From assembly GCA_022508565.1 (NCBI GenBank), contig JAFLUY010000004.1, positions 1-42,943 on the forward strand: 42,943 nucleotides of DNA, written 5' to 3'. Below, in pieces: positions 8,084 to 38,647 of this stretch (position 1 is its first letter; each line of letters starts with the position of its first letter). Under the pieces are notes generated by a model. The model searched no databases. It was not told where the DNA came from and saw only the letters and a list, made by a program, of their open reading frames with translations. The stretch comes from Erysipelotrichales bacterium (GTDB lineage: Bacteria > Bacillota_I > Bacilli_A > RF39 > UBA660). The translations under genes were made by a program, and so were the position numbers.

Positions 8084-8106
8084 CTTATTGATTATCAACT
8101 ACTTAA

Positions 8107-8140
8107 AAAAATGGCGCATTAATTTTGTGCCATTTTTATT
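8107..8140 (+). terminator. Intrinsic terminator after the tail tube gene
   Basis: AAAAATGGCGCA (8107-8118) pairs with TGTGCCATTTTT (8126-8137), including one G-T pair, with a short loop and a T-rich right arm. It ends the tail tube transcript. Confidence 0.85.
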
Positions 8141-8240
8141 TAATTAAATTAAAAAAGGCTAAAAATTCATCACATAAATCTATTTTGAATTATTATTAAT
8201 TAAAGCCTATTTTAATATTAAGTAAATTATTCTTATAAAA

Positions 8241-22574: not shown

Positions 22575-23078
22575 TTAATCAGCTAAATTTACAGGATTTC
22601 CCAATCCAAGAGCACTCATAACCATATCATGACGATTTGCTACTTCATAAGGACGAGAAGCCAATTTAATATATTCCGCACGAAGTGGTTCGAAATAATT
22701 ATTTATAGCAATTACTTTATTCCATTCATCATGTCCTGTAAATTGCATGCTTCCAAGATCAGTAAGTGTTTGGTGAAGTATCGGATAAGCAATTTCTTTA
22801 GGAGCTTTTTCAGGATTCCAGAAATCATACATGGAAGCCATCGCTTGAGCATATTGCCACTGAATAGTCTGCTTATCTAAGAAATAACGGATTCCTTCAG
22901 CTATCTCTTTATAATTTTTAACTTTAGGAAGTTTCATCATTGCTTTAGCAAGATCCTTATCTACTTCTTCTGCTTCTTTAATGATTTCCTGCTCAAGTGC
23001 TTCCAATTCTTTCTGTGATTTACCCTGAATTTCTTTTCTAAAATCTTCTTGAGCTTTTTTAAATTCTTCTGCTGTCAT
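22575..23078 (-). CDS. Unknown protein with an N-terminal coiled coil, 167 residues
   Basis: Residues about 1-45 are Glu/Lys/Gln-rich heptads (for example KSQKELEALEQEIIKEAEEV) predicted to form a coiled coil. The remainder is a helical soluble domain without recognised motifs. Codon choice looks richer in G and C than in neighbouring small genes, similar to the tail genes, which suggests high expression and perhaps a structural or scaffold role. That is only an inference. It has its own terminator on the minus strand. An AATTATATA sequence lies 15 bases before its start on the minus strand. Confidence 0.65.
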   Translation of the reverse strand: MTAEEFKKAQEDFRKEIQGKSQKELEALEQEIIKEAEEVDKDLAKAMMKLPKVKNYKEIAEGIRYFLDKQTIQWQYAQAMASMYDFWNPEKAPKEIAYPILHQTLTDLGSMQFTGHDEWNKVIAINNYFEPLRAEYIKLASRPYEVANRHDMVMSALGLGNPVNLAD

Positions 23079-23107
23079 GTTTTGTAAAAATTATATATAA
23101 TTTTAAA

Positions 23108-23626
23108 TTAAATAAATATGATTGCACAAATAATAGCCGCAATCAATATAATATAAAATATAGAAATTTTAAGCCATCGTTTCAATGCATAACTATATTC
23201 TTTCCTACCAACTATATCAAATATCACTAAATAATTATCTAAGTTTATAGGCCCTACCTTTTGAATGTCTACATCGATATAATTATATAAATCATGTATA
23301 TTAAATAGGTTTTTAATAAGTTCTAATTGCTTATATACCCATATTTGTGTATATGTATTAGAATTAGTATTGTCTCCATCTATTTCGATTATACTATTTG
23401 ATATATCTAAAAATCCTTCTTGGTTTATAACTGGATTTATCACTCCATATAATCTACCAATCCAATCTTTTCTGACATCTATATTTAGATATTTCTTTAG
23501 GATTAATGCAAAATCTTTACTATAAAAAATTTGTCTTATTTTTGATTTGTCTGATTTATATTCAAAATAAGTTTTAAATAAATTATATGTTTTGTATATC
23601 CATGTTTTGTGCCAAATTTTTTTCAT
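23108..23626 (-). CDS. Unknown protein with a C-terminal membrane anchor
   Basis: The 172-residue product starts with a basic, aromatic region (MKKIWHKTWIYKTYNLFKTY) and ends in a single membrane helix (about residues 153-172, with IFYIILIAAIICAIIFI). This is the layout of a tail-anchored membrane protein facing the cytoplasm. No family is recognised. It is the first gene of the minus-strand block and is divergent from the sigma-factor gene across a 284-base intergenic region. Confidence 0.6.
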   Translation of the reverse strand: MKKIWHKTWIYKTYNLFKTYFEYKSDKSKIRQIFYSKDFALILKKYLNIDVRKDWIGRLYGVINPVINQEGFLDISNSIIEIDGDNTNSNTYTQIWVYKQLELIKNLFNIHDLYNYIDVDIQKVGPINLDNYLVIFDIVGRKEYSYALKRWLKISIFYIILIAAIICAIIFI

Positions 23627-23910
23627 CTTTTTTCATTAAAATTTTTTATATTCAAAAATTTTTATTATTTTTGTATTGTCATACAAAAACATACTTTCTA
23701 TAAGAAATTCATTTTTATAATGAAATTTTATCGACTAATACAAAAACTATTTTTAAATATATGATAAAAATAGAATTTCATAATAAAAAAATTCAATAAT
23801 TTTTTGAAATTTTTTAGAATGATTCTATGTTTTAATAGAATTGATTGGAATTATTAAATTTCATATCATAAATTATTATAAGATAGAAAATTAAACAATA
23901 AATATTTAAA
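23627..23910. promoter_or_regulatory. Divergent intergenic region with an inverted repeat
   Basis: This AT-rich, gene-free stretch lies between the minus-strand block and the sigma-factor gene. It contains a 19-base imperfect inverted repeat (23712-23730 against 23771-23789, core TTTTTATAATGAAATT / AATTTCATAATAAAAA), and a match to the Bacteroidetes -7 consensus TAnnTTTG (TATTTTTG at 23666-23673), though no convincing -33 partner is visible. Divergent promoters are expected here. An origin or operator is possible. Confidence 0.4.
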
Positions 23911-25185
23911 ATGAAAAAATTATCACAATTAATTAACGAAGCAAAACAAGGACTTAATCTCCAAGAAGGTACAGTAAATTACGTAAACAAATCAGATCTC
24001 GAAAAATATCTAGAGATTTGTAAAAATTTCATCAATGATGATGCCAAATATGTAGTTGGTTGGCTTATTGAACATAATGATACTTATGTAAAAGATTTGA
24101 CTGCTCCTTCAGGTTCCGTAAATAATGCTTTAGCTGATTTTTATAATGCAGGAGTTCCTAAAGATCAAAATATGAAAGAGCTTTATAAAAGAATTGGTTT
24201 GTTGAATAAAGCAGGACTTATTCTTCAAATTCCTGTATTTCAGACTAAAGATCAACTTGAAGGAATTCTTGACAAAAAAGTAGCACCCGATGAAGTATTC
24301 CTAGATCTTACTTCAGAAAAGGGACGTAATGAAGTTGCCAAAAAATATAATGCTTTAGTTTGGAAGATTGTTCGTTCATTCAAAGGAAAATCTAATTTTA
24401 CTTTAGATGAACTTTATTCAATAGGACTTGAAGGTCTTACATGGGCGATGAACAATTATGGAAAATCTCATGTAGAGACTCAGAAAAAGAAAACTGCAAA
24501 TAAAGAGGATAGCGAACTCGATGAAATATTGAATTCTGAAAAGGAAAAAGCACGTAAACAATATACTTTTATAAAATACGCTGGATATTTTATCCGTATC
24601 GCAATACTTGAAGCTATTAAGAATGAATCTCATCTAGTACGTATTCCGGTATCTCAGCAAAATAGAGAACGTAAAGAAACTGGTAAAAATACTAAATCTA
24701 TGTCGATTTCCGGAGAAACTTCGATATCTAAAGATAAAGAAGGAAATTCTAAATCTTTATTTGATACTATTTCTGGTTCTGAAAATGGACATAAAAATAT
24801 GGATCAAGAAGATATTGATAAACTTTGGACAGATGCTAAAAAGATTCTCGATAAGAAATTTACAGACCGTCAAATGGGCATCTTTACGGATTTCTTAGGA
24901 GTATTTGGTAAAGAAAGTATGTCTGGTAAAGAAGTAATGAAGAAATATGGACTTAAAAATCAGAGTGAGATATCGAATAACAATTCAAAGATTAAATCAT
25001 TCATGATGAAAGATCCTAAACTTAGTAAGATACTTAGAGAAATATATACTCTTTATGCAGAATCTAGAAATGAAAATGATGATGAAGCATATAGTCCTAT
25101 ATATCTAGATAAAAATGTTAATGGGATAGTTGAAAAAGAATTAGAAGAACAAAATAGATATCCTGAAAAAGAAATAGATTTCTAA
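23911..25185 (+). CDS. Sigma-70 family factor with a capsid-targeting-like N-terminus
   Basis: Residues 1-10 are MKKLSQLINE followed by Ala, matching the T4 capsid-targeting peptide and its cleavage rule I-x-E|A. Sigma region 2 covers about 140-235, with NALVWKIVRSFKG, LDELYSIGLEGLTWAMNNYG and FIKYAGYFIRIAILEAIKNE, the last resembling the -10 recognition helix. A region 3-like basic stretch (HLVRIPVSQQNRERKETG) follows, and a C-terminal region 4-like segment (about 310-390) has FTDRQMGIFTDFLGV and KYGLKNQSEISNNNSKIK. It should direct host RNA polymerase to phage promoters. The N-terminal peptide suggests it is packed in the head and injected with DNA. It heads a cluster of four genes whose products carry such peptides. 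Confidence 0.82.
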   Translation: MKKLSQLINEAKQGLNLQEGTVNYVNKSDLEKYLEICKNFINDDAKYVVGWLIEHNDTYVKDLTAPSGSVNNALADFYNAGVPKDQNMKELYKRIGLLNKAGLILQIPVFQTKDQLEGILDKKVAPDEVFLDLTSEKGRNEVAKKYNALVWKIVRSFKGKSNFTLDELYSIGLEGLTWAMNNYGKSHVETQKKKTANKEDSELDEILNSEKEKARKQYTFIKYAGYFIRIAILEAIKNESHLVRIPVSQQNRERKETGKNTKSMSISGETSISKDKEGNSKSLFDTISGSENGHKNMDQEDIDKLWTDAKKILDKKFTDRQMGIFTDFLGVFGKESMSGKEVMKKYGLKNQSEISNNNSKIKSFMMKDPKLSKILREIYTLYAESRNENDDEAYSPIYLDKNVNGIVEKELEEQNRYPEKEIDF

Positions 25186-25193
25186 ATCTAAAT

Positions 25194-25529
25194 ATGGTAT
25201 CATTACAAAATTTCATAGTTACCGAATCTTTAGATTCTGAAATGCTTTATTGGAAAATGAATACATGGTATATGGGTAGAGAGGATGAATTGAATTCTTT
25301 CTATTCTATGATGAATGTACTTGCGAATTCTCCGGCGGTAACTTTAAAAGATTTTGAAAAAGTATTAAAAGATTATAATTTAGATTGGAAACAATTTGTA
25401 CAATTCGCTATAGATAATGTAGATGGTACTATTGAATTTGATCAATTATATACGATGAAAAAAATCGTAGATATTTTACTAGCGAATAAAAATTATAAAT
25501 GGGACCTTAAAGATGAAAAGTCTATCTGA
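25194..25529 (+). CDS. Unknown protein with a variant capsid-targeting-like N-terminus
   Basis: The start MVSLQNFIVTE is close to the ten-residue peptide on neighbouring proteins (Phe7, Ile8, acidic residue) but has Val2 and one extra residue before Glu, giving V-T-E|S. The rest of the 111 residues is helical, with FEKVLKDYNLDWKQFVQFAI in the middle. It starts 8 bases after the sigma-factor stop and overlaps the next gene by 17 bases, so the three are co-expressed. The head-packaging idea is weaker here than for its neighbours. Confidence 0.65.
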   Translation: MVSLQNFIVTESLDSEMLYWKMNTWYMGREDELNSFYSMMNVLANSPAVTLKDFEKVLKDYNLDWKQFVQFAIDNVDGTIEFDQLYTMKKIVDILLANKNYKWDLKDEKSI

Positions 25530-26037
25530 ATTCATTCGAGAAAAATTAGAAGGAAATGATTTTATAGAAATATCTGATTTAGAAGTTATATATATTCCAG
25601 ATACTGAAAATTTATTAGTTCAAGTACCTAATAACTATAATGAAGATAATATTCACATGTATTTAGATGATTCATGTATGCCCGATATGCCTTCAGATCC
25701 TAAAAATATTGGAGAATTATTTGGAAGTGATAACTCTAAAAATCTTTCTGATGCATATTTCCAATATGAAGATTTGACTTTACCAGAAGATTCTACGACT
25801 AAGCCCCAAATCGAATGGAACAAAAGATATGATAATCATGAGGATAGAAATGCTGAATTGATAGTATATTCATTAAATAATTTTGAATATCATATATTAT
25901 TTGAAAAATTTGAAATCAATAATAGAGAGAATTTAGAATTAGAAAAAATATTAGAAGATTTATTTACTGCAGCAGAATCTAATAAAATTCATCCTTGGGC
26001 GTTTCCTATAAAACTTAAAGAGATTAATTTTAAATAA
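25513..26037 (+). CDS. Unknown protein with a capsid-targeting-like N-terminus
   Basis: The start MKSLSEFIRE is the closest match in the window to T4's MKTYQEFIAE: Lys2, Ser3, Glu6, Phe7, Ile8 and Glu10, with I-R-E as the cleavage site. The 174-residue remainder is acidic and has no recognised domain. Strands alternate with Asp/Glu-rich loops (for example LEVIYIPDTENLLVQVPNNY). It overlaps the preceding gene by 17 bases. Its position right behind the sigma factor suggests a helper that travels with it, for example an RNA polymerase- or host-targeting effector, but this is inference. Confidence 0.7.
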   Translation: MKSLSEFIREKLEGNDFIEISDLEVIYIPDTENLLVQVPNNYNEDNIHMYLDDSCMPDMPSDPKNIGELFGSDNSKNLSDAYFQYEDLTLPEDSTTKPQIEWNKRYDNHEDRNAELIVYSLNNFEYHILFEKFEINNRENLELEKILEDLFTAAESNKIHPWAFPIKLKEINFK

Positions 26038-26058
26038 GAAAATGAGATATCGAATATC

Positions 26059-26718
26059 ATGTGGAAGAAAATATTAAATAAAAGAACAATATATATTGGA
26101 TTATTTGCTTTACTTTATCTTATATGTGCTGGAGTAAGTCTTTATCATGCTATAGCATTTTTTGGTTTAGCAAATAACCCATTTACTGCAACTATGCTTG
26201 CAGGAGCATTTGAAGTTGGACAAGCGGCAGTATTATTTTCATTATTGACATCTAAAAAAGATAGGTCTAAAATATTGCCTTGGGTTTTAATGTTTATATT
26301 TACATTAGTACAAATATTAGGTAATGTATTTAGTTCATATGAATATTTGATTAAATATTCAGGAGATATGTTAATATATTTTAAACAACCAATATTTATA
26401 TGGACAGATATTCCAGATGATCAATGTAATGTTATACTTTCATATCTCCTAGGAGGACTCCTCCCAATCACCTGTCTCGCCTTAACTTCAATGATTACAA
26501 ACTTTTTGGAAGATGAGACTACCGAAAAATTAGAAAATTTAGGAGCTACAGAAGAGGAAATTCAAGAAATTAAAGATAAAACAGAAGAATTGAATCTAAT
26601 TACTGATAATACTAAAGAATTAGAAAAAGAAGTCCCTTTAAGCTCTTCAATAGAAGATAATAAAAAAGTTGATAAACAACAAGAAATTCCGGAAATTCCT
26701 GGATTTGTGAATCTATAA
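26059..26718 (+). CDS. Four-helix membrane protein with a long charged cytoplasmic tail
   Basis: Four hydrophobic segments are visible at about residues 11-32, 44-63, 73-92 and 122-145, followed by a 70-residue tail that is Glu/Lys-rich and probably coiled (TEEEIQEIKDKTEELNLI) and ends in EIPEIPGFVNL. It has no catalytic motif that I know. It lies 21 bases after the preceding gene, within the cluster of head-targeted proteins, and ends at a bidirectional terminator. It might remodel the inner membrane or block superinfection. Confidence 0.65.
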   Translation: MWKKILNKRTIYIGLFALLYLICAGVSLYHAIAFFGLANNPFTATMLAGAFEVGQAAVLFSLLTSKKDRSKILPWVLMFIFTLVQILGNVFSSYEYLIKYSGDMLIYFKQPIFIWTDIPDDQCNVILSYLLGGLLPITCLALTSMITNFLEDETTEKLENLGATEEEIQEIKDKTEELNLITDNTKELEKEVPLSSSIEDNKKVDKQQEIPEIPGFVNL

Positions 26719-26764: not shown

Positions 26765-27181
26765 TTATTTTCCCTTAAAACAAATTTTAGATTCTCTTTC
26801 AACATTTTCTAATGAATCACTAGAATGCATTGCGTTTTTCATATCATCTTTTGACCAATCGGCTCGAATTTTATCTTTAAAAATATCCATATCTTTAATA
26901 GGATCTATACATTTTTTATATATGGTCATACAAATACAATCTCCAGAAGACATATAGTCACAAAGAGTTTGATAAAAAGATTTATCTTGTTGTCCTTCAT
27001 ATAATTCTTCTGCTTGCTTTCTAGATAATCTTATTGTTTTTGAATTTAAAATTTTCCAATCGTTTAATTTTAAAAGTCTTCTAAATTCTTCTTCATATTC
27101 TAAAAATCCCGGTTTTAAAATTACAAACCCATTAGGTTTTTGTTGAGATGATTCGTAAATGAATTGTACAATAGATTTCAT
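26765..27181 (-). CDS. ndk: Nucleoside diphosphate kinase with a capsid-targeting-like N-terminal extension
   Basis: From residue 19 the protein follows the NDK fold: FVILKPG (the F-x-x-IKP motif), the Kpn-loop region RLSRKQAEELYEGQQDKSFY, DYMSSGDCI, and the C-terminal DKIRADW ... NAMHSSDSLEN. The catalytic His is at 119, and the Arg106 and Ser/Asp neighbours are kept. The enzyme moves phosphate from ATP to other nucleoside diphosphates. Ahead of the domain is an extra MKSIVQFIYE then SSQQKP, which matches the T4 capsid-targeting peptide (I-Y-E cleavage site). That extension is not part of normal NDKs, whose IKP motif starts near residue 6-10. I infer that it is packed into the head. It is on the opposite strand to, and convergent with, the sigma-factor cluster. 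Confidence 0.85.
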   Translation of the reverse strand: MKSIVQFIYESSQQKPNGFVILKPGFLEYEEEFRRLLKLNDWKILNSKTIRLSRKQAEELYEGQQDKSFYQTLCDYMSSGDCICMTIYKKCIDPIKDMDIFKDKIRADWSKDDMKNAMHSSDSLENVERESKICFKGK

Positions 27182-27250
27182 AAATGAAATTATCTATAAA
27201 TTTAGTTAAAAATATATCTATTTTATTTATTAATATATTATGATAGAAAT

Positions 27251-28315
27251 ATGAATATTAAATTAGGTCCTAGTAAATCTTCTTGTGCAAGATATATTAT
27301 TGATTCGTATGTAAATAATAATGAAATCAATCCATCTTTATTATCATCGTGTGATGATACTCAAACTTTATTGAAATATGTGAATCAAAAATCTGGTATA
27401 GTAGACATCGGACCTTCCGGAACTTCGATGAGATTTCTTATGGCTTTATATGCTTCAGATCCGAATTGCAATATAATATTAACAGGTTCTGAAAGAATGC
27501 TTCAACGTCCTATGCAACAATTTATTGATATGTTGATTTCAATGGGAGCTGATATCAGAGAAATCAGACAAGGTTGGAAAATTATAGGAAAACAATTATA
27601 TGGTACCATCATCGATTGCTCGAAATTAAAATCTTCGCAATTTGCTTCAGCAATACTATTAATTGAACCAAGACTTAAAGGAAAAGTAATATTAGAAAAT
27701 TTTGATAATTGTACATCAAAAAAATATTTACAACATACAATTGATTTTCTTAAGAATAAAAATATAGAACCTGATTGGTCAGCATTAAGCTTTATATATA
27801 GTTATATCATCACTCACCATAAAGAGGAAATTACTATAAACAATTATAAGATAAATTCATTCACTATTGAATTAGCAGAATTAGCCGAACAATATGGAGT
27901 AATTACTAAGATTGATGAAGAAAATAATAGAGCTTATATTTCTTGTATGCCTTGGCACGATGATTGTATATTTAAAGACTTTTCGAATATTCCTGATGAA
28001 ATCCCTGCATTCGTCGTTGCATCAGTCTATGTAAATATACCTTTTAAATTTACTGGATGTGAAACTTTAAAGAATAAAGAATGTGATCGATTAGCTGTAT
28101 TGAAAGAAAATTTAAATGATAATATAATATTTGATGAAAAATCTGTAGAAAGTAACTATAATTCTTATGTAAGAAAAAATTTAATCAAAACTTATAATGA
28201 CCATCGGATTGCAATGGCTTTTGCTTCATGTGGTATACTTAAATCTCAAATAGAAAATCCTGATGTAGTCAATAAGTCATGGCCCGAGTTTTGGAAAGAA
28301 TTTAATTTAGATTAG
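27251..28315 (+). CDS. aroA: 5-enolpyruvylshikimate-3-phosphate synthase (shikimate pathway step 6)
   Basis: All active-site landmarks of AroA are present: GPSKSS with Lys9, SGTSMRFL (56-63), LTGSERMLQRPM (77-88), SSQFASA (128-134), the catalytic Asp249 in NIPDEIPAF, Glu277 in KNKECDRL, NDHRIAM (316-322) and the C-terminal Lys342 in VNKSWPEFW. The enzyme joins phosphoenolpyruvate to shikimate 3-phosphate. Motifs such as SCDDT and DWSALSF resemble those of Bacteroidetes AroA proteins. At 354 residues it is about 70 shorter than usual, with loops lost, notably ahead of DWSA. The following gene begins 2 bases after its stop, and aroK follows that, so this is an aro operon. Confidence 0.92.
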   Translation: MNIKLGPSKSSCARYIIDSYVNNNEINPSLLSSCDDTQTLLKYVNQKSGIVDIGPSGTSMRFLMALYASDPNCNIILTGSERMLQRPMQQFIDMLISMGADIREIRQGWKIIGKQLYGTIIDCSKLKSSQFASAILLIEPRLKGKVILENFDNCTSKKYLQHTIDFLKNKNIEPDWSALSFIYSYIITHHKEEITINNYKINSFTIELAELAEQYGVITKIDEENNRAYISCMPWHDDCIFKDFSNIPDEIPAFVVASVYVNIPFKFTGCETLKNKECDRLAVLKENLNDNIIFDEKSVESNYNSYVRKNLIKTYNDHRIAMAFASCGILKSQIENPDVVNKSWPEFWKEFNLD

Positions 28316-28317
28316 TG

Positions 28318-28596
28318 ATGGAAGATAAAGAAAAAATAAAACAGATTCTTGATTTAATAGATTCTCTAGAAAAAGAAGATGAAATTGTTTTCCTAGATGT
28401 AGACACCTTTAGATCTTGTAATATCGAAAATATGTTAAATCAATCAATAGAAAGTATTTTATATGATTTGAATAGAGGTCCCGAAGTATTGAAAACTCTT
28501 ATGAATTTAGATGAAAATAAATGGTGTATTAATGATATTGCATTAGTAATATTATTTAAAAGAGTTTTTAAGAAATTACAAGAATATGAAAAATAA
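28318..28596 (+). CDS. Small acidic protein inside the aro operon
   Basis: The ATG at 28318 is chosen over a GTG at 28315 that overlaps the aroA stop. The 92-residue product is acidic at the start (MEDKEKIKQILDLIDSLEKE) and helical, with no recognised motif. It overlaps aroK by 11 bases, so its expression is tied to both shikimate genes. It may be an accessory or regulator, or simply a passenger. Confidence 0.65.
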   Translation: MEDKEKIKQILDLIDSLEKEDEIVFLDVDTFRSCNIENMLNQSIESILYDLNRGPEVLKTLMNLDENKWCINDIALVILFKRVFKKLQEYEK

Positions 28597-29077
28597 CAAT
28601 ATAATATATCTTATCGGAATGCCTGGTTCTGGCAAGACTTATTTAGGTAAAAAACTTGCAAATATTTTTGGATATCATTTTATCGATTTAGATTTTTATA
28701 TCGAAACTAAAGAAAACAAGACAATAGAAGAAATAATATCCGAAAATTCAGAAAGCTATTTTAGAAATTTAGAAAGAGAGCATCTTTTAAATTTAGCAGT
28801 AGATAAAGTTATTGTAGATAAAGTTATTAATAATCAAAAAATCATAATATCATGTGGAGGTGGATTGCCTTGTTATTTTGATAATATCAATTTACTGAAA
28901 TTTTCCGGTAAAGTTATTTATTTAGATACTTCATTATGGAAAATTTATAAAAGATGTTTGAAAAGCAATCGGCGTCCATTATTTAAGAATAAAATTACAT
29001 TATTTTTTAAACTATTAAAAACTAAAAAGAAAAGATTACCTTATTATTTACAAGCAGATTATACAATTAAATTATGA
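28586..29077 (+). CDS. aroK: Shikimate kinase (shikimate pathway step 5)
   Basis: The 163-residue protein has the complete shikimate kinase signature: Walker A GMPGSGKT (11-18), the shikimate-binding FIDLDFYIE (32-40) with Asp34, Arg60 in SYFRNLE, GGGLP (91-95), the lid NRRPLF (128-133) and the late RLPYYLQAD (150-158) with Arg150. The enzyme phosphorylates shikimate with ATP, giving the substrate for AroA, whose gene is just upstream. Length matches the family. It overlaps the genes on both sides (11 bases before, 4 bases after), showing a tightly packed operon. Confidence 0.92.
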   Translation: MKNNNIIYLIGMPGSGKTYLGKKLANIFGYHFIDLDFYIETKENKTIEEIISENSESYFRNLEREHLLNLAVDKVIVDKVINNQKIIISCGGGLPCYFDNINLLKFSGKVIYLDTSLWKIYKRCLKSNRRPLFKNKITLFFKLLKTKKKRLPYYLQADYTIKL

Positions 29078-29355
29078 ATAGTAAAAAGAAATATAAATTT
29101 GATATAGAAATTCATAAGCATTCTATGTTATCTAATGGGAAAAATATTACTTCGGATCCGATGACGATTAAACAATTAGAAGCTTATTTAAAAAGAGAAG
29201 CAAAGGAAATTTTAGAAAATTCAGAAAATTTAGAATATGTTTATTATGTCGCATGGGAGCAAAACTCTGAAAAGAAAATCGATGAATTGTTGATGTGCTT
29301 TGTAATAGGAAGAAAACATTCAGAAAATATACGGATCTATTCTATGGTTAGTTAA
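29074..29355 (+). CDS. Unknown protein at the end of the aro operon, 93 residues
   Basis: Its start overlaps the aroK stop in an ATGA pattern, which suggests translational coupling. The product is lysine/glutamate-rich and soluble, with a likely strand-helix-strand layout (FDIEIHKHSM, then IKQLEAYLKREAKEILENSE, then EYVYYVAWEQ). No family is recognised. The homing endonuclease begins about 100 bases later. Confidence 0.6.
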   Translation: MNSKKKYKFDIEIHKHSMLSNGKNITSDPMTIKQLEAYLKREAKEILENSENLEYVYYVAWEQNSEKKIDELLMCFVIGRKHSENIRIYSMVS

Positions 29356-29457
29356 AGTTGAAATATTTTCTATTTAAAATTTAATAATTTTCTGTAGATT
29401 TATTTAATTTATATTAAATAGTTCTATTTTAAATTAAAATACTTTTTATTTTATCAG

Positions 29458-30879
29458 ATGGGCCGTAAAATTATTTATAAAAAATTAGAGGATATTACAG
29501 ATGAATATATTATAGAAAAATTTTGGAAAGGTAAATCCTCAACATTTACTAGACAAAATAATTGTGGACATGTATCAGAAGATGAATTGAAATATTTAAA
29601 TAATCGATTTAAAGATTCTACAGGACCAGAAGAAACTATATATAGAATAAAAAATAAAATATTCGAAAGGCCAAAATGTCCAATTTGTGGAGGATCTATT
29701 GAATATCGTAAATACGGAGGATTTAAACAATATTGTTCAAGAGTTTGTGCAAATAAAAGAGAAGGTTTTAAAGAGCAAAGAGAAAAAACTTGTTTAGAGA
29801 GATATGGAACTTATAATGTCCTTACTTTAGATAAAATCAGAAAAAAATCAATTAAATTAGCTCATACTGAATCCGCAAAAGAAAAACGTAAACAAACTTG
29901 TTTAAAAAAATATGGTTCTCCAACCCCAATGACTACCAAAGAAGGTATTGAAAAATCTAAAGCTTCTAGAAATACTAAAGAAGTAAAAGATAAAATTCGT
30001 AAAACATGTTTAGAGAGATATGGAGTAACTACACCTATAATACAAAAAGAAATATTAGAAAAAGCTATTAAAAATAGTCATACTCCAGAAGCAGATAAGA
30101 AACGTAAAGAATCTATGATGAATAGATATGGAGTTGAATATTCAATGCAAATTCCTGAAATATTAAAAAAGTGTCAAGCGACTAATAATACTCCGTCGGC
30201 CAAAAGAAAACGAGAAGAAACGAATCTTAAAAGATATGGTTATAAATATACTTGCCAAAATCCTGTAAAACAGAAAAAAGCAAATGAATCTTCCCAAACT
30301 CCAGAAGCAATAGCTAAAAGAGTGAAAACAAATTTAGAAAGGTTTGGAGAAAATAATTATGGTAATAGAGAAAAAGCTAAACAAACATGGTTAGATAAAT
30401 ATGGAGTACCTCATCATCGTATGACAAAAGAAGCAAAGGAACATATGTCTGAAGTTATGAGTGATCCATTATTACAAAATCGTAGATATAATAAAATGAA
30501 AGAAAATAATTCTTTTAATATATCTAAACCAGAAGATGAAACTTATAATTTATTAAAAGAAAAATTTATAGAGGTAATAAGAGAATATAAATCGGAATTA
30601 TATAATTATTCTTGTGATTTTTATATTCCTTATTTAGATCTATATATCGAATGTAATTACCATTGGACACACGGAAATCGTCCATATAGAGAAAATTCTA
30701 AAGAAGATTTAGAAATTTTAGAAAAATGGAAATCTAAAAATACTAAATTTTATAATAAAGCTATAGAAGTATGGACTATTAAAGATGTTAATAAACGAAA
30801 TACAGCAAAAGAAAATAACTTAAATTGGATAGAATTTTTTAATATAAAAGATTTTAAAAAATGGTTTGAAGATCAATAA
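29458..30879 (+). CDS. Free-standing homing endonuclease next to the split DNA polymerase
   Basis: The 473-residue protein is a longer paralogue of the one at 8241. It has a zinc-binding motif (CPICGG ... CSRVCANK, about residues 75-98), then about eight copies of a helix repeat with the core TCLERYG or NLKRYG, spaced 20-30 residues apart. The C-terminal nuclease domain (about 355-473) has CDFYIPYLDLYIECNYHWTH, then EVWTIKDVNKRNTAKEN. The repeats probably read the target DNA along the major groove and the end domain cuts. It lies 42 bases before the polymerase fragment, the arrangement seen where homing enzymes have split replication genes in T4-like phages. Confidence 0.82.
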   Translation: MGRKIIYKKLEDITDEYIIEKFWKGKSSTFTRQNNCGHVSEDELKYLNNRFKDSTGPEETIYRIKNKIFERPKCPICGGSIEYRKYGGFKQYCSRVCANKREGFKEQREKTCLERYGTYNVLTLDKIRKKSIKLAHTESAKEKRKQTCLKKYGSPTPMTTKEGIEKSKASRNTKEVKDKIRKTCLERYGVTTPIIQKEILEKAIKNSHTPEADKKRKESMMNRYGVEYSMQIPEILKKCQATNNTPSAKRKREETNLKRYGYKYTCQNPVKQKKANESSQTPEAIAKRVKTNLERFGENNYGNREKAKQTWLDKYGVPHHRMTKEAKEHMSEVMSDPLLQNRRYNKMKENNSFNISKPEDETYNLLKEKFIEVIREYKSELYNYSCDFYIPYLDLYIECNYHWTHGNRPYRENSKEDLEILEKWKSKNTKFYNKAIEVWTIKDVNKRNTAKENNLNWIEFFNIKDFKKWFEDQ

Positions 30880-30921
30880 ATAAAATCCTATATTTTATAT
30901 TATAATTTAATTGAAAATAAT

Positions 30922-32187
30922 ATGTCTAAATTTAGTGAAAATGTTGAAAAATGGTTTAATGAAAATTGGCCTGAAATAAAAGTTGAAAATATAGATAATT
31001 TATCATTAGATAAACTTAAAATATTAAAAGAAGAAGTAGTCGCGGCTAGACAGCAAGTTAGATGCGTTGAAGACGCATACAAGGCGGGAGCCAATAGTGC
31101 TTACGGAGCATGTGCTAATCCTGGTTTTTATTTCTTTAACCAAGCTTTAGCCGGCGACATAACAGGAGAATGTCGAGCATTGACTAAATTCATGGTAGAT
31201 AAAGGAGAAGATTTTTTTCATAAAGAAATTTGGGATAGAAAAGATCTATGGAAAAAATATGATATAGATTTAGATGAGTCTAAAAAAGAATGGTACCAAA
31301 ATAAACCTGTTTGGATTTACAGTGATACCGATTCTTGTTATTATCAGTATGGAGATTTTTTTAAATGTATGACAGAAGATTGGCATAAACGTTATCCTAA
31401 TATGAGAGATAAAATAATGTGGATGGTTAAATTTAATCAAGAATTTATGGATAACCAAAATAAAGAATGGATAGATGACATGTATAAAAAACGTAATGGT
31501 AATTCTGTGCATCTTTTTGAGACCGAACTCGTTTCTCATAGTGAAATAAATCTCCAAAAAAAGAAATATATGAAGAATGTCATTTGGGAGAAAGGTAAGC
31601 TATATGATCATCCAAAAACTAAAGGAACCGGTATTGAATTGATTAAGTCAACTACTCCACCACTTTGTAAAGAGATCTTGACAAAACTTATCAATTTTCT
31701 TATCTATGAATATTCAGAAATGGGACATACTGAATTTATATATTTCTTCGCGGATAAATTGATGGAATTTAAGAAACAATTTTATGCAGCGCCTATCGAT
31801 GAGATCTCTCAAAGTATTGGGGTAAACGGATATCAGAAATATGTAATTAATGACGAAACCGCTCTCGAATTTCGTCCGCATGCTACTCCAGGAGTAAAAG
31901 GATGTGCAAGATATAATTATTTAGCTCATAAAGCAGGAGCTGATGATAAGAGGATATATAGTGGTAAAATGAAATATTATAATATTAGGATAAATGATAA
32001 GACTACTGATTTCTTTGCGTATCCATTCGGAGAATGTCCTGATTGGGCACCTAAAATCGATTTGCCAACGCAATGGGAAAAAACTATCATAACTCCAATA
32101 AATAGATTCCTAGAAGTTATGAAAATTCCGAAAGCTAATATTGGAGGAATTGAGATAGGATTATTTATGGATGAAGATTTTGGATAA
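30922..32187 (+). CDS. C-terminal half of a split family B DNA polymerase (T4 gp43 type)
   Basis: This 421-residue protein holds only the later polymerase motifs. Motif B is DAYKAGANSAYGACAN (51-66), motif C is YSDTDS (133-138) with the two catalytic Asp residues, the KKKY thumb motif is in LQKKKYMKNV, and GTGIELIKSTTPPLCKEIL follows, as in T4 gp43. The exonuclease domain and motif A are absent from this protein and from every other gene in the window. The break therefore lies between motifs A and B. The N-terminal half should be encoded elsewhere and must assemble with this one to give an active enzyme. The first 45 residues look like a linker. A homing endonuclease is directly upstream and a strong terminator directly downstream. 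Confidence 0.88.
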   Translation: MSKFSENVEKWFNENWPEIKVENIDNLSLDKLKILKEEVVAARQQVRCVEDAYKAGANSAYGACANPGFYFFNQALAGDITGECRALTKFMVDKGEDFFHKEIWDRKDLWKKYDIDLDESKKEWYQNKPVWIYSDTDSCYYQYGDFFKCMTEDWHKRYPNMRDKIMWMVKFNQEFMDNQNKEWIDDMYKKRNGNSVHLFETELVSHSEINLQKKKYMKNVIWEKGKLYDHPKTKGTGIELIKSTTPPLCKEILTKLINFLIYEYSEMGHTEFIYFFADKLMEFKKQFYAAPIDEISQSIGVNGYQKYVINDETALEFRPHATPGVKGCARYNYLAHKAGADDKRIYSGKMKYYNIRINDKTTDFFAYPFGECPDWAPKIDLPTQWEKTIITPINRFLEVMKIPKANIGGIEIGLFMDEDFG

Positions 32188-32940: not shown

Positions 32941-33047
32941 AAAAATATCGATAAAAATGATAAACAAACATAATTCATAAGTAACCTAATAAAGAATCTA
33001 TTTTTAAATATATAAAAAAAGTAAAATTGTATATAATTTTTATATTT

Positions 33048-33299
33048 ATGTCTATAGAAGAACTGAAGAAAGCTTTGCATGAAACTACGTATATCTCTTA
33101 TAATGTTATAGATAGTTTATTAGCAGGATTTGATGACTCCGTATCAAATGAAGATAAAGAAAGATTATATACACATATCGCTTGGCATATTCCTACTGGA
33201 GGACCTAAATTTCCAAAAGATAAAAAAGGAATCGAATATAAAAAAGAAATATTAGAAGCGATAAGAGAAATTTATGGGTTGTCTAAATTAGAAGATTAA
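33048..33299 (+). CDS. Small protein made of one copy of a tandem three-gene module
   Basis: The frame is open from 33027, but ATG 33048 starts the part shared with the next two genes. The 83-residue product is a single module: IEELKKALHETTYISYNVID, then an acidic helix, then the hallmark HIAWHIPTGG and a closing KKEILEAIREIYGL. The same module heads the proteins at 33329 and 33841. Its function is unknown. Because one copy is joined to a beta-helix, it may be a docking or oligomerisation domain on the virion surface. Confidence 0.7.
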   Translation: MSIEELKKALHETTYISYNVIDSLLAGFDDSVSNEDKERLYTHIAWHIPTGGPKFPKDKKGIEYKKEILEAIREIYGLSKLED

Positions 33300-33328
33300 A
33301 AAATACATTGTTAATTTAATATATTAAT

Positions 33329-33730
33329 ATGGACGAAGTAAAAACTATAAAAGATAAATTACATGACGCGACTGGATTGTCTTATTCTTTTATTGATAGT
33401 AAATTCGAAATACTAAATAATGAAGAAATAACAGATGAGCAAAAAGAGACATTCTATACCAGTCTTTCTTGGATGATTCCTAGTGGAGTTGTAAATACTG
33501 AAAACAAAAAAGAAATATTGAAAACTTTTAGGGAAGAAAATAATCTACCGGCGATAGAAGAAAATAGCGAATTAGATATTTATGAAGATCCTAAAGAATC
33601 AGAAGAAACTCCCGAACAGAATCCTGAAACTGAGGAAAAAGGTGAAGATACTCAAGTAGAACCAGAAGAAAAGGAAGAATCTAAAGAAAATGAAGAACCC
33701 GAACAGGCTGAAGAAAAAATCGAAGAATAA
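33329..33730 (+). CDS. Module protein with a long acidic Pro/Glu tail
   Basis: Residues about 6-73 are the second copy of the shared module (KDKLHDATGLSYSFID, then SLSWMIPSGV, then KKEILKTFREENNL). Residues about 75-133 are a low-complexity tail made almost only of Glu, Pro, Lys, Gln and Thr (for example EETPEQNPETEEKGEDTQVE), likely unfolded and strongly negative. Such tails can act as spacers or electrostatic brakes. It follows the first module gene by 29 bases and is followed by a terminator. Confidence 0.7.
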   Translation: MDEVKTIKDKLHDATGLSYSFIDSKFEILNNEEITDEQKETFYTSLSWMIPSGVVNTENKKEILKTFREENNLPAIEENSELDIYEDPKESEETPEQNPETEEKGEDTQVEPEEKEESKENEEPEQAEEKIEE

Positions 33731-33766
33731 TTTTTATATATTTATATAAAACAATATTATATAATG

Positions 33767-33803
33767 AAATGGGATGGCAAAGTTAAGTCATCCCGTTTTC
33801 TAT
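33767..33803 (+). terminator. Hairpin terminator between module genes
   Basis: GGGATG (33771-33776) pairs with CATCCC within a longer imperfect stem (33767-33798), followed by a T-rich stretch. It separates the two short module genes from the beta-helix gene. Confidence 0.7.
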
Positions 33804-33840
33804 TTTTAATTATAGAAATTAAATTATATTATTTTAGTAT

Positions 33841-35550
33841 ATGGATATCCGACAAGAATTGTGCGATAAAACCGGTTTCGCAAAAAATATTGTTGATAAA
33901 CTTTTAGAAGAACTCCAAATATCTGAAGGAGAGGCAAAAGAAAAAGTATTATCACATATAAAATGGCATATTCCTAGTGGAGCTATGGAAGATCCTAAAA
34001 CTGGAAAAACTTTTTCAGATTTTAGAGATTATTTAATTGAAGAAATTCGTAAAAATTATTTTTCAGATAAAACTGTTGAAGAGATTATCGAAGAACTAAT
34101 AAAAGGAGGCGATGTTGATTTTGTTGGTAACCTTTCATTAGAAGAATCAATTATTCCTGAATCGGATTTAAATCTCAATTTAAATAATAATGATGTTGAA
34201 GTTAAACCCGACAATAATGTAATTACTGTAGAAAATGGTAAAACTATTACGATTACAGGAGACGGAACAATAACATCTCCTTTTAATGGAGGAAATGATG
34301 TTGGAGTATCCGCTATTGAGGTGACCAACGGAAAATTAGAAATTGGTAAATCTGAAGAGGTTTTAGGAGCTTCTACAGAAAATGGAGAAAATATTAAAAT
34401 TATTGGCCCTAGAGCAATCACAGCTAACGGTTCAGCGGCCGAAGTAGTTATTAATAACGGAGAATTTGCAACATTCTATAGTGAAGCCCCTGTTATTTAT
34501 GTTGGTAAAGACGGAGGTAAAGTAGTTATCAATAACGGAGAATTCAAAGTAGAATATGAAGGAAAAACTGGATATACGAATAAATATCTTTTGAATTTAA
34601 ATGATGATTTATTGAAAGATTCTAATAAGAAAGCTACTGATTTTATTGAAGTTAAAGGTGGTACTTTCTATAATTTTGATCCATCACATTCCGAATCAGA
34701 AAACCCTCCTGTTAGTTTTTTAGCATCTGGATATAAAGTTAAATCTGAAGTTAAAGGTAAAGATACTTTATATCATGTAGTAATAGATCGTACCGCACAA
34801 ATCTTAAAAGAAATTGTTGCTGGAGGAGATTATACTCTCCCAGAAGATATCGATATCACTTCAAAAATTGCTTTAGCAAAACCTACTAATCTCGATTTAA
34901 ATAATCACACAATTACAAATAAAACTCCCGGAGGAGACGCTATTCAATTAGGTGCTGGAGAATTCACTTTTAAAAACGGTACAATTGATAATGTTATTGG
35001 AGGAGGAGCGTCTGCTGGTATTTATGTAAATTCTTCTAAAGGAAACAATATCACTTTAGAAAATATGACTATTAAAGCTACTTATCCTGTATATTTGAAT
35101 AATGCTATAAATCCTGTATGTACAATTAAATCAGGTACATATATAAGTCCTTATGATAAAGGTGTAGCTGTATATGTAGAAAAAGGAGGTAAAGCTATAA
35201 TTGAAGGAGGTTATTTCTCTACAGACGGACATGACAGTTCATTCTTACTGAATTTAAAAGATAACATCCGTGAACCTAATACTGATAAGAAACCCATAGA
35301 ATTTATTGAAGTACGTGGTGGTACATTTGTAAACTTCAATCCAGAAAATAATGCTTCAGAAGGAGCTGGTACAAATTACGTACCTGATGATTATATTGTA
35401 GGTTCTTATAAAGAAGGAGAAAATACTATATATATTGTTGAGAAATATAATAATCAACCAGATGTAGATTTTGACGGTCCTAATGGAGCAACTATTACTT
35501 GGAATACTGAAAAATTTGGAAAAAATAATTCTACAATGAATATAGAATAA
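33841..35550 (+). CDS. Beta-helix surface protein with the shared N-terminal module
   Basis: Residues about 2-74 are the third module copy (QELCDKTGFAKNIVDKLLEE, then HIKWHIPSGA, then LIEEIRKNYF). The rest is a parallel beta-helix-like array rich in Gly, Asn, Thr and Ile, with turns such as GKTITITGDGTI, GKVVINNGEF and ENMTIKATYPVYLNNA. Two internal repeats end in KYLLNLNDDLLKD/SFLLNLKDNIREP followed by (E)FIEV(K/R)GGTF. This architecture is typical of phage tail fibres, spikes or head fibres that touch host glycans. There is no signal peptide. Its codon use is close to that of the tail sheath gene, which suggests strong late expression. Confidence 0.78.
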   Translation: MDIRQELCDKTGFAKNIVDKLLEELQISEGEAKEKVLSHIKWHIPSGAMEDPKTGKTFSDFRDYLIEEIRKNYFSDKTVEEIIEELIKGGDVDFVGNLSLEESIIPESDLNLNLNNNDVEVKPDNNVITVENGKTITITGDGTITSPFNGGNDVGVSAIEVTNGKLEIGKSEEVLGASTENGENIKIIGPRAITANGSAAEVVINNGEFATFYSEAPVIYVGKDGGKVVINNGEFKVEYEGKTGYTNKYLLNLNDDLLKDSNKKATDFIEVKGGTFYNFDPSHSESENPPVSFLASGYKVKSEVKGKDTLYHVVIDRTAQILKEIVAGGDYTLPEDIDITSKIALAKPTNLDLNNHTITNKTPGGDAIQLGAGEFTFKNGTIDNVIGGGASAGIYVNSSKGNNITLENMTIKATYPVYLNNAINPVCTIKSGTYISPYDKGVAVYVEKGGKAIIEGGYFSTDGHDSSFLLNLKDNIREPNTDKKPIEFIEVRGGTFVNFNPENNASEGAGTNYVPDDYIVGSYKEGENTIYIVEKYNNQPDVDFDGPNGATITWNTEKFGKNNSTMNIE

Positions 35551-35591
35551 AATTAATCCTATTTTAATATTAAAAATAATGTCATAGACTA

Positions 35592-35849
35592 ATGTTTCCG
35601 GGATTTATTTCATTATATAAAGATTCTAATGGTAAAGTACATGTTTATTTCTTTAGAGGAATAGGAGATAATTTTAAACCTATTTATAGAACTTTAGATT
35701 TGACTCATATAAAAGAAAATTATAAATTTACTGAATTAGAAGACGGGGCAGTTGACTATATATTTGATAATCCGTTTTTAAGTACTATTGATTGTAAACT
35801 TGTAAATATTTTTACAGGAGAAACGGAAAGAATTAAAATTAATTTATAA
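35592..35849 (+). CDS. Unknown small protein, 85 residues
   Basis: This is a strand-rich soluble product (FISLYKDSNGKVHVYFFRGI near the start; CKLVNIFTGETERIKI at the end) with no known motif. It lies between the beta-helix gene and the next unknown gene, 5 bases upstream of the latter, and may be a small virion component. No function is assigned. Confidence 0.6.
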   Translation: MFPGFISLYKDSNGKVHVYFFRGIGDNFKPIYRTLDLTHIKENYKFTELEDGAVDYIFDNPFLSTIDCKLVNIFTGETERIKINL

Positions 35850-35854
35850 AAATT

Positions 35855-36415
35855 ATGAAAAAAGTATATATTTTAGGTAACAATTCTTATTGTTTGAAAA
35901 TAATACCGACATTAGAAAAAATAGGAGGAAAAAATGATAATGAATTTTCTGAAGAAGAATTATCAAATGAAAATAATATATTTTATATAGATTGGTTTGA
36001 AGATAATTTAATTAAGTTTATTAATAAAGATACAGTTTTAGGAAGCGAAATTCTTACATGTTGGAAAAAAATATGCCCATTGACATCTATAAACGAATTG
36101 CCTCAAGATTGGGATAGTGCTTATGCTAATTATGAATCCCTTCAAAAATATATGAATGGAGAAGACGGAAAATTAGATACAAAAATGGATTATCTAGGCC
36201 GAGTAATCATTTTAAGAGATATTTATAGACAAGGATGGATTCCGGAATATAATGATCAAGTATATCACATAAAATACGATTTATCTATTAAAGATTTGAC
36301 AATATTGAAAGGAATTGGAATTTCTAAACTATTATCATTTAAAACTTTAGAATTAGCAGAAGCTTTTAAAGAAAATTTCAATAATTTATTAACAGCAGTA
36401 CAAGAATATCTTTAA
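35855..36415 (+). CDS. Unknown protein, 186 residues
   Basis: The product begins MKKVYILGNNSYCLKIIPTL, a strand-loop-helix that superficially resembles a nucleotide-binding start but lacks a glycine-rich loop. Further on there is SWNELPQDWD-like chemistry (INELPQDWDSAYANYESLQK) and a DYLGRVIILRDIYRQGWIP segment. I recognise no family. It ends 25 bases before a strong terminator. It may share a transcript with the small gene before it. Confidence 0.6.
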   Translation: MKKVYILGNNSYCLKIIPTLEKIGGKNDNEFSEEELSNENNIFYIDWFEDNLIKFINKDTVLGSEILTCWKKICPLTSINELPQDWDSAYANYESLQKYMNGEDGKLDTKMDYLGRVIILRDIYRQGWIPEYNDQVYHIKYDLSIKDLTILKGIGISKLLSFKTLELAEAFKENFNNLLTAVQEYL

Positions 36416-36440
36416 AATAAAATTTAACATTTTTTAACTA

Positions 36441-36480
36441 AGAGCCTTTTGAAAATTTACTTCAAAAGGCTCTATTTTTT
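36441..36480 (+). terminator. Strong intrinsic terminator
   Basis: AGAGCCTTTTGAA (36441-36453) pairs perfectly with TTCAAAAGGCTCT (36461-36473), followed by ATTTTTT. It separates the structural-looking genes from the sigma-factor/ClpX block. Confidence 0.92.
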
Positions 36481-36528
36481 CTAAAATCCTCTTTAGATAA
36501 AATAATAAGTATATGAGAGGAATAAATA

Positions 36529-37770
36529 ATGCCTAGAATTAAAGTTGTCTTAAATAAGACAAATACACAAAAGTTAAATAAATTTTTTAAATGGGCCCAG
36601 GAAAATTGGCCGAATGTAGATAATACTGAGTTAAGCGAATTTTTAATTGAGAAGATTAAAAATGAGATAAAAAATCTAATGAAAGATTGTTCTGAAAAGA
36701 TGATCATTGAAGTCTGGATAGAAAAATTGAAAAAATCCAGAATTCCATTAGATATAAAAGATTTTAAGGAAAATATTATAGAAAATCTTAAAATTGCAGT
36801 AAGAACTAAATTAGCAGGGATATATACTAACAAATCATTTGATAATAATATTGATATATATTTTAATGAAGTAAAGAGAGAATATATACTCCATCCACAA
36901 TCAGAATCAGATGAATTAGAATTTTTACCAGAAAATAGAGATGTATTCATCAAAAATAATCTCAAATTAGTAGTAAATTGCGCAAAACGATATCAAAATT
37001 TAGGATTACCGTTTGAAGATTTAATACAAGCCGGTAATGAAGGATTATTAGCAGCATTCGATAATTTTAAAACCGATAGAGCTAATCTTAGGAATGCTAT
37101 TATTGAGGATATAAAAAATGAAGAAATTGAAAACTTTACATATGAAGAAAGTGAAAGAATAGTCAAACATAGATTTATATATGGGAAATTATTAGATCAA
37201 ACTCTTAAAAAACTTCCACAAACAGGATTTGAATCAAAACAAGAATTTATCAATTGGGCTAAATTAAATATTAAAGGAGCAGTATTTGCTTCAGTGGCAT
37301 TTCAGTGGATACGTTCGGCGATCATCATGGAAATTACAAAATCCGGAAATGTCATTAAAATGCCTAAGAAATCAAAAACCGATGATGATGAAAAGGGCTC
37401 TAATATAGCAAAAATAATTAGATTAGATAGCATCAATCCATATACTGATGATAATTATTCTGATGCTGATTTATCGATTATTGCAAATGAAGAATTCATT
37501 ATTGAAGACCAAGCTATCGAAAAAGTAGAAAAACAACAAACTTTAAGACCTGTTATCGAAGAGATGTTAAGTTGTTTAGATTTATTAGATCGAAAAGTTA
37601 TTAAAAGAAAATATGGAATTGGATATCCTTATGCTATGACGATTAATGAAATATCTGAAGCCGAATCGATTTCAGTTGGTCAAGTGAAAAGAATTCTTAG
37701 AGATTCTATGTTAGTATTACAACAAAACTTAAATGATAATCAAAAAAGAATGTTAGCAGAAATTTTATGA
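36529..37770 (+). CDS. Second sigma-70 family factor, without a capsid-targeting peptide
   Basis: Sigma region 2 spans about residues 142-285: NNLKLVVNCAKRYQNLGLPF then EDLIQAGNEGLLAAFDNF, and SVAFQWIRSAIIMEITKSGN as the -10 recognition helix. A region 3/4 part follows, with LLDRKVIKRKYGI and a helix-turn-helix TINEISEAESISVGQVKRIL (about 375-395). An extra 60-residue segment splits region 2 (about 180-250). The N-terminus (MPRIKVVLNK) has no head-packaging peptide, so this factor should be made after infection and may drive middle or late genes. The start of the next gene overlaps its stop by four bases. Confidence 0.87.
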   Translation: MPRIKVVLNKTNTQKLNKFFKWAQENWPNVDNTELSEFLIEKIKNEIKNLMKDCSEKMIIEVWIEKLKKSRIPLDIKDFKENIIENLKIAVRTKLAGIYTNKSFDNNIDIYFNEVKREYILHPQSESDELEFLPENRDVFIKNNLKLVVNCAKRYQNLGLPFEDLIQAGNEGLLAAFDNFKTDRANLRNAIIEDIKNEEIENFTYEESERIVKHRFIYGKLLDQTLKKLPQTGFESKQEFINWAKLNIKGAVFASVAFQWIRSAIIMEITKSGNVIKMPKKSKTDDDEKGSNIAKIIRLDSINPYTDDNYSDADLSIIANEEFIIEDQAIEKVEKQQTLRPVIEEMLSCLDLLDRKVIKRKYGIGYPYAMTINEISEAESISVGQVKRILRDSMLVLQQNLNDNQKRMLAEIL

Positions 37771-38300
37771 AAGATCGAATAAATCATAAAATATATATAA
37801 TGTTTCCTTCTATTTGGAAATGCTGGAGAGAATGGTGGCGAGTAAGAAAATGGTTTAAATTTCCAAAAATAAATATATATTGGCAAAAGAAAAACTCATT
37901 AAGTTTTTATTGTCTTTTTGATAAATTATTTAGTTTTGAGATATATCCTTTACGTTGGAAAACGAAATATACAGATTATTGTTTTGAAGGATGTCCATAT
38001 ATAATATTTAATTTATTTAGAAAAAGGTTTTTAGCTATCGAATTTGTGGCTCCTAATATTAAAGGAGAAGAAACAAATAGTCACATATATTATGAAAGCA
38101 TTTTAGATAAAATTCATGGTAAATACTCATATATCACAATGGAAAGTGAACCTTTAAATATATATGAAGTATATAAAAACAATATATGGACTAGATATGG
38201 AAAAAATAATGTTGAGCAAAAATTTACTTGTTTACCGTATTTGACAAAATATGCTAAAAAAGAAATAGAAAAAATCAATCCGAAAGAATTCGAAATTTAA
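37767..38300 (+). CDS. Unknown basic, aromatic-rich protein, 177 residues
   Basis: The ATGA overlap with the sigma-factor stop shows coupled translation. The N-terminal 60 residues are rich in Trp, Lys and Phe (SIWKCWREWWRVRKWFKFPK), suggesting membrane-surface or nucleic-acid contact. No catalytic motif or membrane helix is clear. The 3' end overlaps the convergent gene at 38275 by 26 bases. The function is unknown; a sigma-factor partner is possible because of the coupling. Confidence 0.6.
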   Translation: MKDRINHKIYIMFPSIWKCWREWWRVRKWFKFPKINIYWQKKNSLSFYCLFDKLFSFEIYPLRWKTKYTDYCFEGCPYIIFNLFRKRFLAIEFVAPNIKGEETNSHIYYESILDKIHGKYSYITMESEPLNIYEVYKNNIWTRYGKNNVEQKFTCLPYLTKYAKKEIEKINPKEFEI

Positions 38301-38577
38301 GATTAGCCATATTAGAAGATAGACTAAGTACTTTTAAATTTGCTCCGGTTCGTTTTCTAAGTATGACTATATTCACTTCTCCATTATTAAAATATCCTAC
38401 TTGAGTTACTGGAGCAGTTATATCAAAATCAGGCATTATTGAACAATCTTTGGTCCAAAATCTAACGATTTTACCTATTAAAAGCTGCTCTAGTTCCTCT
38501 TTTGTAAATTGAATCACTCGGTAATCTTTATTTACAAAAATTTCTTTATCTCCGATTATATATGATTCTTTTTTCAT
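38275..38577 (-). CDS. Unknown small minus-strand protein, 100 residues
   Basis: The soluble product starts MKKESYIIGDKEIFVNKDYR and continues with a helix (FTKEELEQLLIGKIVRFW) and several strands (VTQVGYFNNGEVNIVILRKR). It overlaps the end of the plus-strand gene tail to tail, which is common for small phage genes. The divergent ClpX gene starts 70 bases away, so promoters for both should lie in 38578-38647. No family is recognised. Confidence 0.55.
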   Translation of the reverse strand: MKKESYIIGDKEIFVNKDYRVIQFTKEELEQLLIGKIVRFWTKDCSIMPDFDITAPVTQVGYFNNGEVNIVILRKRTGANLKVLSLSSNMANLKFRILSD

Positions 38578-38647
38578 GAAATCTACTTAAAAGTACCTAT
38601 ATTAAAAATATGAATTAATTATATTTAAAAATTAAATATTAAACTAA

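Follow-up and report, generated by a model that had tools for sequence, protein, structure and literature searches.

Can a family B DNA polymerase whose gene begins only at motif B be part of a working enzyme, and if so, where is the rest of it encoded? The question is raised by the gene at 30922-32187 of a 42,943-nucleotide stretch (contig JAFLUY010000004.1, referred to in its entirety as the window), which is a phage contig, C32, in a 1.69-Mb, 37-contig bacterial bin. An earlier reading of the letters alone (the original prediction) had taken this gene for part of a polymerase that is cut between motifs A and B and whose other half is missing from the locus. Our analysis suggests that the replicative DNA polymerase of a large, gut-type, T4-related jumbo phage is encoded by two genes, of which this is one, and works as a heterodimer of their products, the other gene being on another contig of the bin, C37; judged from sequence comparisons, we give this reading a probability of roughly 0.82. 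The two halves are as follows.

30922..32187, + strand: C-terminal half of a gp43-type family B DNA polymerase (421 amino acids), comprising fingers helix P with motif B, palm motif C and thumb
C37:7715-9271, - strand: N-terminal polymerase half (518 amino acids), comprising exonuclease, motif A and fingers helix N and ending before motif B

Several searches confirmed that the window gene encodes a T4 gp43-type family B DNA polymerase of which only the C-terminal half is present. Its product matched phrog_1918 (E 5.5e-46), covered positions 510-839 of the 856 in phrog_262 (E 1.8e-39) and gave a Pfam DNA_pol_B match over the cut-off (E 1.4e-6), and the solved structures that it matched were RB69-type gp43, over chain residues ~618-888 only. 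The structure predicted for this half alone (pLDDT, the predicted local distance difference test, 78.5; predicted template modelling score, pTM, 0.46) was weakest at 205-239, and its best PDB matches in Foldseek were all RB69 gp43. Motif B (K-x3-NSAYG), motif C (YSDTDS) and the thumb are all found in the product, as had been claimed, and neither an exonuclease domain nor motif A was found in it, its match spanning the C-terminal part of gp43 only. Given these C-terminal-only matches and the endonuclease and aro genes that lie upstream (described below), the original prediction was right in what it described.

The missing half was sought with phrog_262 across the whole bin, a useful query since a whole-genome search with Pfam PF00136 missed both polymerase pieces at its threshold. 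Matches came from two places only, C32:31024-32127 (family positions 498-839) and C37:7790-9256 (positions 12-481), a complementarity far beyond chance; the same search found no N-terminal half in the window and no complete family B polymerase in the bin. The 518-amino-acid open reading frame (ORF) on C37 holds the exonuclease domain PF03104 (E 9.9e-12), with all of the Exo I-III acidic residues (D103/E105, D212, D324) and motif A (DFASLYPS) in place. It is thus the very protein that the original prediction had proposed to look for, one that carries the exonuclease domain and motif A but stops short of motif B, and its position on a separate contig agrees with the view that the other half is absent from the locus and far off; counted from the contig ends, the halves lie at least ~18 kb apart in the window's phage. 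Among 392 genomes of the bin's phylum the C-terminal half was found only in this bin, and scans of viral contigs with either single half protein gave no matches.

The pair was then aligned with the polymerases of RB69, KVP40, Det7, KP6F1 and P-HM1. In RB69 numbering, equivalents of all four exonuclease residues (D114, E116, D222, D327) are kept, as are those of the polymerase residues D411 and Y416 of motif A, R482, K486, K560, N564 and Y567 of the fingers, D621/D623 of motif C, and K706, of which the window half carries K560, N564, Y567, D621, D623 and K706. The break falls at RB69 517|517, within the fingers-tip loop (RB69 ~512-517) between the two fingers helices, and the N-terminal tails and C-terminal heads tile the intact polymerases of relatives, with nothing lost and no insert. 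In the predicted structure of an intact relative, the junction (511|512) lies in a loop (507-516) between helices 490-506 and 517-527. The break had been placed inside the catalytic palm/fingers; it is indeed in the fingers, at the tip loop between two helices, and not in the catalytic palm.

A cut in the fingers-tip loop is one across which the halves can rebuild the active site without covalent joining. From C37 would come the exonuclease, fingers helix N and the palm strand with motif A, and from the window gene the thumb, fingers helix P bearing motif B and the remaining palm with motif C; the two polypeptides would fold against each other to give an unbroken active site as a heterodimer. 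Assembly in trans is the most likely mode, and a vital enzyme would then have been broken at a harmless joint while apparently still working as two parts. There is a precedent in the split gp43 (43A/43B) of Aeromonas phages 25 and 44RR, likewise T4-type family B polymerases, which break at the same fingers-tip site (RB69 512|514 in the same alignment) and, like the window's phage, have no intein at the break. The passage of PMC2988022 that cites Petrov, Ratnayaka and Karam 2010 gives the halves as co-purifying with polymerase activity, for phage 25 only. The arrangements differ in that the 44RR halves are ~50 bp apart, whereas those of the window's phage are on different contigs; a GIY-YIG homing endonuclease gene lies between the halves of phage 25, whereas here a DUF7487 endonuclease gene lies upstream of the C-terminal half; the C-terminal part of phage 25 contains a group I intron; and the two split lineages are separate in the tree. 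The original prediction had mentioned split gp43 beside homing endonucleases in Aeromonas T4-like phages, and the break found here is at that known Aeromonas site.

Several points weigh against the two-gene enzyme. The support for its assembly and activity is that of conservation and precedent, and the structure models are of moderate quality (pTM 0.46 for the C-terminal half and 0.51 for the intact relative). The link between C32 and C37 rests on binning, composition and synteny only, not on reads. Finally, the phage assembly may be incomplete, with C22, C32, C36 and C37 together amounting to ~191 kb against 410 kb for one relative, so an intact copy could exist outside the bin.

Relatives of the polymerase were found both intact and split. 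A search of IMG/VR with an alignment of N-terminal halves gave 252 loci. Those nearest to the C37 half, at 52-59% identity, are a mix of the two states. Two of these genomes, G393 (410 kb) and G398 (236 kb), have a single uninterrupted polymerase gene of 926 amino acids, 51-59% identical over both halves, and in G392 and G399 the fingers site is intact and there is an insert at motif C. In the split genome G394 (148 kb), the N-terminal half (125,427-126,968) and the C-terminal half (845-2,113) are on one contig, 123 kb apart, and at L058, L061-L068 and L071 an N-terminal half was found without a C-terminal half within the flank fetched. A more distant group (30-36%) is intact, and the next (28-31%) is split, with halves mostly a few kb apart. 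Such intact and split enzymes, at ~50-60% identity, form a natural experiment in which activity, fidelity, assembly and the timing and control of replication could be compared.

The split arrangement is widespread, not unique. In all ten of the jumbo/mega phage records searched (PAU, MA9V-2, PTm1, Lak-A1, Lak-B6 and five LR records), the N- and C-terminal halves are separate genes with the same break, and a complete polymerase copy, whose presence elsewhere would have made the window gene a relic according to the original prediction, was found in none of them, as in the bin. Cis-splicing cannot join the halves in LR745206, LR756502 and LR756504, where they are encoded on opposite strands at a distance of ~100-280 kb. 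Some huge-phage relatives thus make an essential enzyme with demanding structural requirements from two genes that lie on opposite strands and are separated by more than 100 kb, whereas close relatives have retained a single gene. A second break, with a split intein, is found at motif C (DTD^S) in PTm1, Lak and LR756500; at that site LR756501 has an in-frame insert. PAU, MA9V-1/2, PTm1, Lak and LR745206/LR7565xx share with the window's phage both the break and the two half-families, which are separate PHROG families, 2062 (N-terminal) and 1918 (C-terminal), both named DNA polymerase; the PAU and MA9V halves are, however, a few kb apart, and the loci of the N-terminal half in the jumbo/mega phages differ from that of the window's phage. 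In the following cases the halves are annotated unnamed or as two polymerases.

L003:4068-5531 and 7956-9170: PAU gp105 and gp110, halves of one polymerase
L004:3010-4497 and 7956-9233: MA9V genes 192 and 196, halves of one polymerase

The MA9V-1 paper lists the halves as two polymerases without comment (PMC10537231), and annotation of this kind leads to replication genes being miscounted and misplaced in trees. The polymerase of Vibrio phage V6Aob (L016:5710-9299) is also divided into ORFs near the fingers region, close to HNH genes, and its C-terminal part has a stop within the match.

Other two-piece family B polymerases are known. The passages of PMC4104785 that cite Kelman 1999 and Choi 2006 describe polymerases made from two gene products in Methanobacteriales and Nanoarchaeum equitans. 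The N. equitans genes are non-adjacent, like those of the window's phage, but archaeal and with a split intein, and the Methanobacteriales split is also archaeal and attributed there to an intein. In the jumbo phage MIJ3 the polymerase is likewise in two ORFs with an HNH endonuclease, but there is an intein and ORFs 153-155 are contiguous (PMC6892783).

Which half stayed in place can be read from the genes around it.

22575..26718: conserved markers of the G393-type polymerase locus (22575, - strand; 23108, - strand; sigma factor 23911, + strand; 25513, + strand; 26059, + strand)
26765..30879: block before the C-terminal half, where G393 has the front of its intact polymerase (small genes, aroA, aroK, 29074-29355 and the endonuclease gene)
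27251-28315, + strand: aroA, by aro family match
28586-29077, + strand: aroK, by aro family match
29458..30879, + strand: free-standing DUF7487 (PF24308) homing endonuclease gene, directly upstream of the C-terminal half
33027..39856, + strand: downstream neighbours in common with the C-terminal-half locus of G394 (33027, 35592, 35855, sigma factor 36529, 37767 and ClpX 38648)

The genes at 22575-26718 match G393:338481-342495 in order, directly upstream of the intact polymerase at G393:343184-345964. The C-terminal half has therefore kept the G393-type polymerase locus, and by comparison with G393, whose upstream gene block is shared and whose polymerase is one gene, aroA, aroK and the endonuclease gene occupy the spot where the front of the polymerase gene should begin. 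Downstream, 33027-39856 matches G394:2167-14537 in the same order. The N-terminal half is at a portal-MoxR locus in C37, G394, L058, L061, L062, L064, L066, L068 and L071. Both claims about the neighbourhood proved correct, in that aroA and aroK, not the N-terminal half, precede a homing endonuclease gene (phrog_3339, E 1.6e-20; PF24308, E 1.7e-20, 74.4 bits against a curated cut-off of 27) that lies directly upstream of the C-terminal half across a 42-bp spacer.

In the window, G394 and PTm1 a DUF7487 endonuclease gene immediately precedes the C-terminal half, and in LR756500 and Lak-A1 one immediately follows the N-terminal half. This amounts to five split genomes against 0.21 expected (Poisson P ~3e-6, indicative only, as gene counts are approximate and the genomes related). 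The same place holds a TnpB gene in MA9V-2 and the GIY-YIG gene in Aeromonas phage 25, which suggests that the fingers-tip site may be a homing hot spot. An intact polymerase gene would once have stood behind the sigma-factor block, and its coding sequence would have been broken at the fingers tip, probably, we infer, by a DUF7487-type endonuclease; the C-terminal half would have stayed while the N-terminal half moved to the portal-MoxR locus. The fingers-tip split itself is known from the Aeromonas phages; what differs here is the distance between the halves, the different endonuclease family and the intact close relatives showing which half moved. Other DUF7487 endonuclease genes (window 8241-9299; L224:1530-3047; L225:8968-10050) also adjoin essential phage genes, namely those for the tail tube in the window and the gp23 capsid on C22.

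The order of events among the relatives may have been different. The intact genes of the close relatives could have arisen by re-fusion or allelic replacement from an ancestral split in this Bacteroidota-type jumbo clade, a history that is compatible with a two-gene enzyme in the window's phage and that we regard as possible but doubtful. In the tree of the N-terminal half, the Lak, LR and PAU/PTm1/MA9V lineages, all of them split, branch outside the group that holds the intact genes, and parsimony needs a minimum of 4 changes when reversals are allowed, against 6-8 independent splits without them. The maximum-likelihood tree places the intact genes of the close group among split ones, and to either side of the intact clade the N-terminal half occupies the same locus, portal-MoxR. 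However, a single split clade in that group is not rejected (approximately unbiased test, p 0.19), so re-fusion is possible and not more, and fission is mechanistically easier than in-frame re-fusion. We propose only tentatively that the fingers-tip joint is a recurrent and reversible fission site, at which endonuclease-associated breaks occurred several times and at least one jumbo lineage with a split ancestor came to have an intact gene again.

It is also conceivable that the halves are decaying relics and that the phage replicates with another polymerase, either a phage PolIII-type enzyme or that of the host, since related group 2.2 jumbo phages have been reported with a minimal split PolIII alpha in addition to PolB (PMC7824862). 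We judged this quite unlikely, as the catalytic residues are all kept in the open frames of both halves and the ratio of nonsynonymous to synonymous substitutions (dN/dS) is low. In the split halves of relatives it is 0.03-0.11, compared with 0.087 for an intact pair, which indicates purifying selection in the split relatives, and both halves are kept in every split jumbo/mega record searched.

Were the separately made halves joined by RNA trans-splicing or a split intein, the enzyme would be a single chain in the cell. Inteins and split inteins do occur in this same polymerase in relatives, at motif C (DTD^S), and the terminase of the window's phage looks fractured with an intein. Nevertheless, an intein at the fingers-tip break was rejected, as no intein domain was detected in either half by a search that detected the PTm1 and Lak pieces used as positive controls, and joining at the RNA level was likewise rejected, as no intron of the Rfam families was found in the window or in C37:1-20000, although one of a type not yet described is conceivable. 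Both halves have start and stop codons of their own, and the pair tiles the intact protein without an insert, all of which makes joining very improbable.

Least credible is the explanation that binning has brought together contigs of two phages, C37 belonging to one and C32 to the other, so that the window's phage lacks an N-terminal half or has it elsewhere: the contigs are linked by bin and composition only, within a bacterial metagenome-assembled genome, but the whole bin holds exactly one N-terminal half, one C-terminal half and one gp23 capsid gene (on C22), the tetranucleotide correlation of C32 with C37 is 0.998 compared with at most 0.976 for the other phages tested, ORFs of both contigs share an MKSLxEFI-type N-terminal signature, and G394, with both neighbourhoods on one molecule, supports a single phage. 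C37 itself, 51,984 bp long, carries T4-like phage genes (portal, terminase, topoisomerase).

Some further features of this phage, for which we prefer the reading of a two-gene polymerase assembled in trans, were observed alongside. Another essential gene seems to be fractured in it too, that for the terminase large subunit (L007:15102-17788): there are two ORFs, and the start of the second resembles the C-terminal segment of an intein (...GILSHNS, weak PF14890). A ClpP-like gene (window 16057-16665), a ClpX-like gene (38648-39856) and two sigma-factor-like genes (23911-25185 and 36529-37770) lie within 43 kb. Many ORFs of the phage contigs begin with an MKSLxEFIxE-type motif (window 19161, 23911, 25513 and 26765; L007:7153; L009:11255; L230:2264), which resembles the capsid-targeting sequence of T4 internal proteins; its presence on one sigma-factor-like protein suggests that these are injected proteins.

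The aro genes beside the polymerase half belong to a larger set. A homologue of each of the seven shikimate enzymes (DAHP synthase, AroB, AroQ, AroE, AroK, AroA and AroC), as well as of chorismate mutase, is encoded somewhere on C32, C36 or C37, C36 being assigned to the phage by synteny with G393, G394 and G398 and by composition.

Window 9296-10330, 27251-28315 and 28586-29077; L007:9675-10112; L227:1474-2502; L225:16246-16530; L228:1459-2247; L230:1486-2208: shikimate-related genes

A literature search on the shikimate pathway among phage auxiliary metabolic genes found no paper. The DAHP synthase, AroE and AroC matches on the phage contigs are the only ones in the whole bin, and this gene set may be more unusual than the split polymerase.
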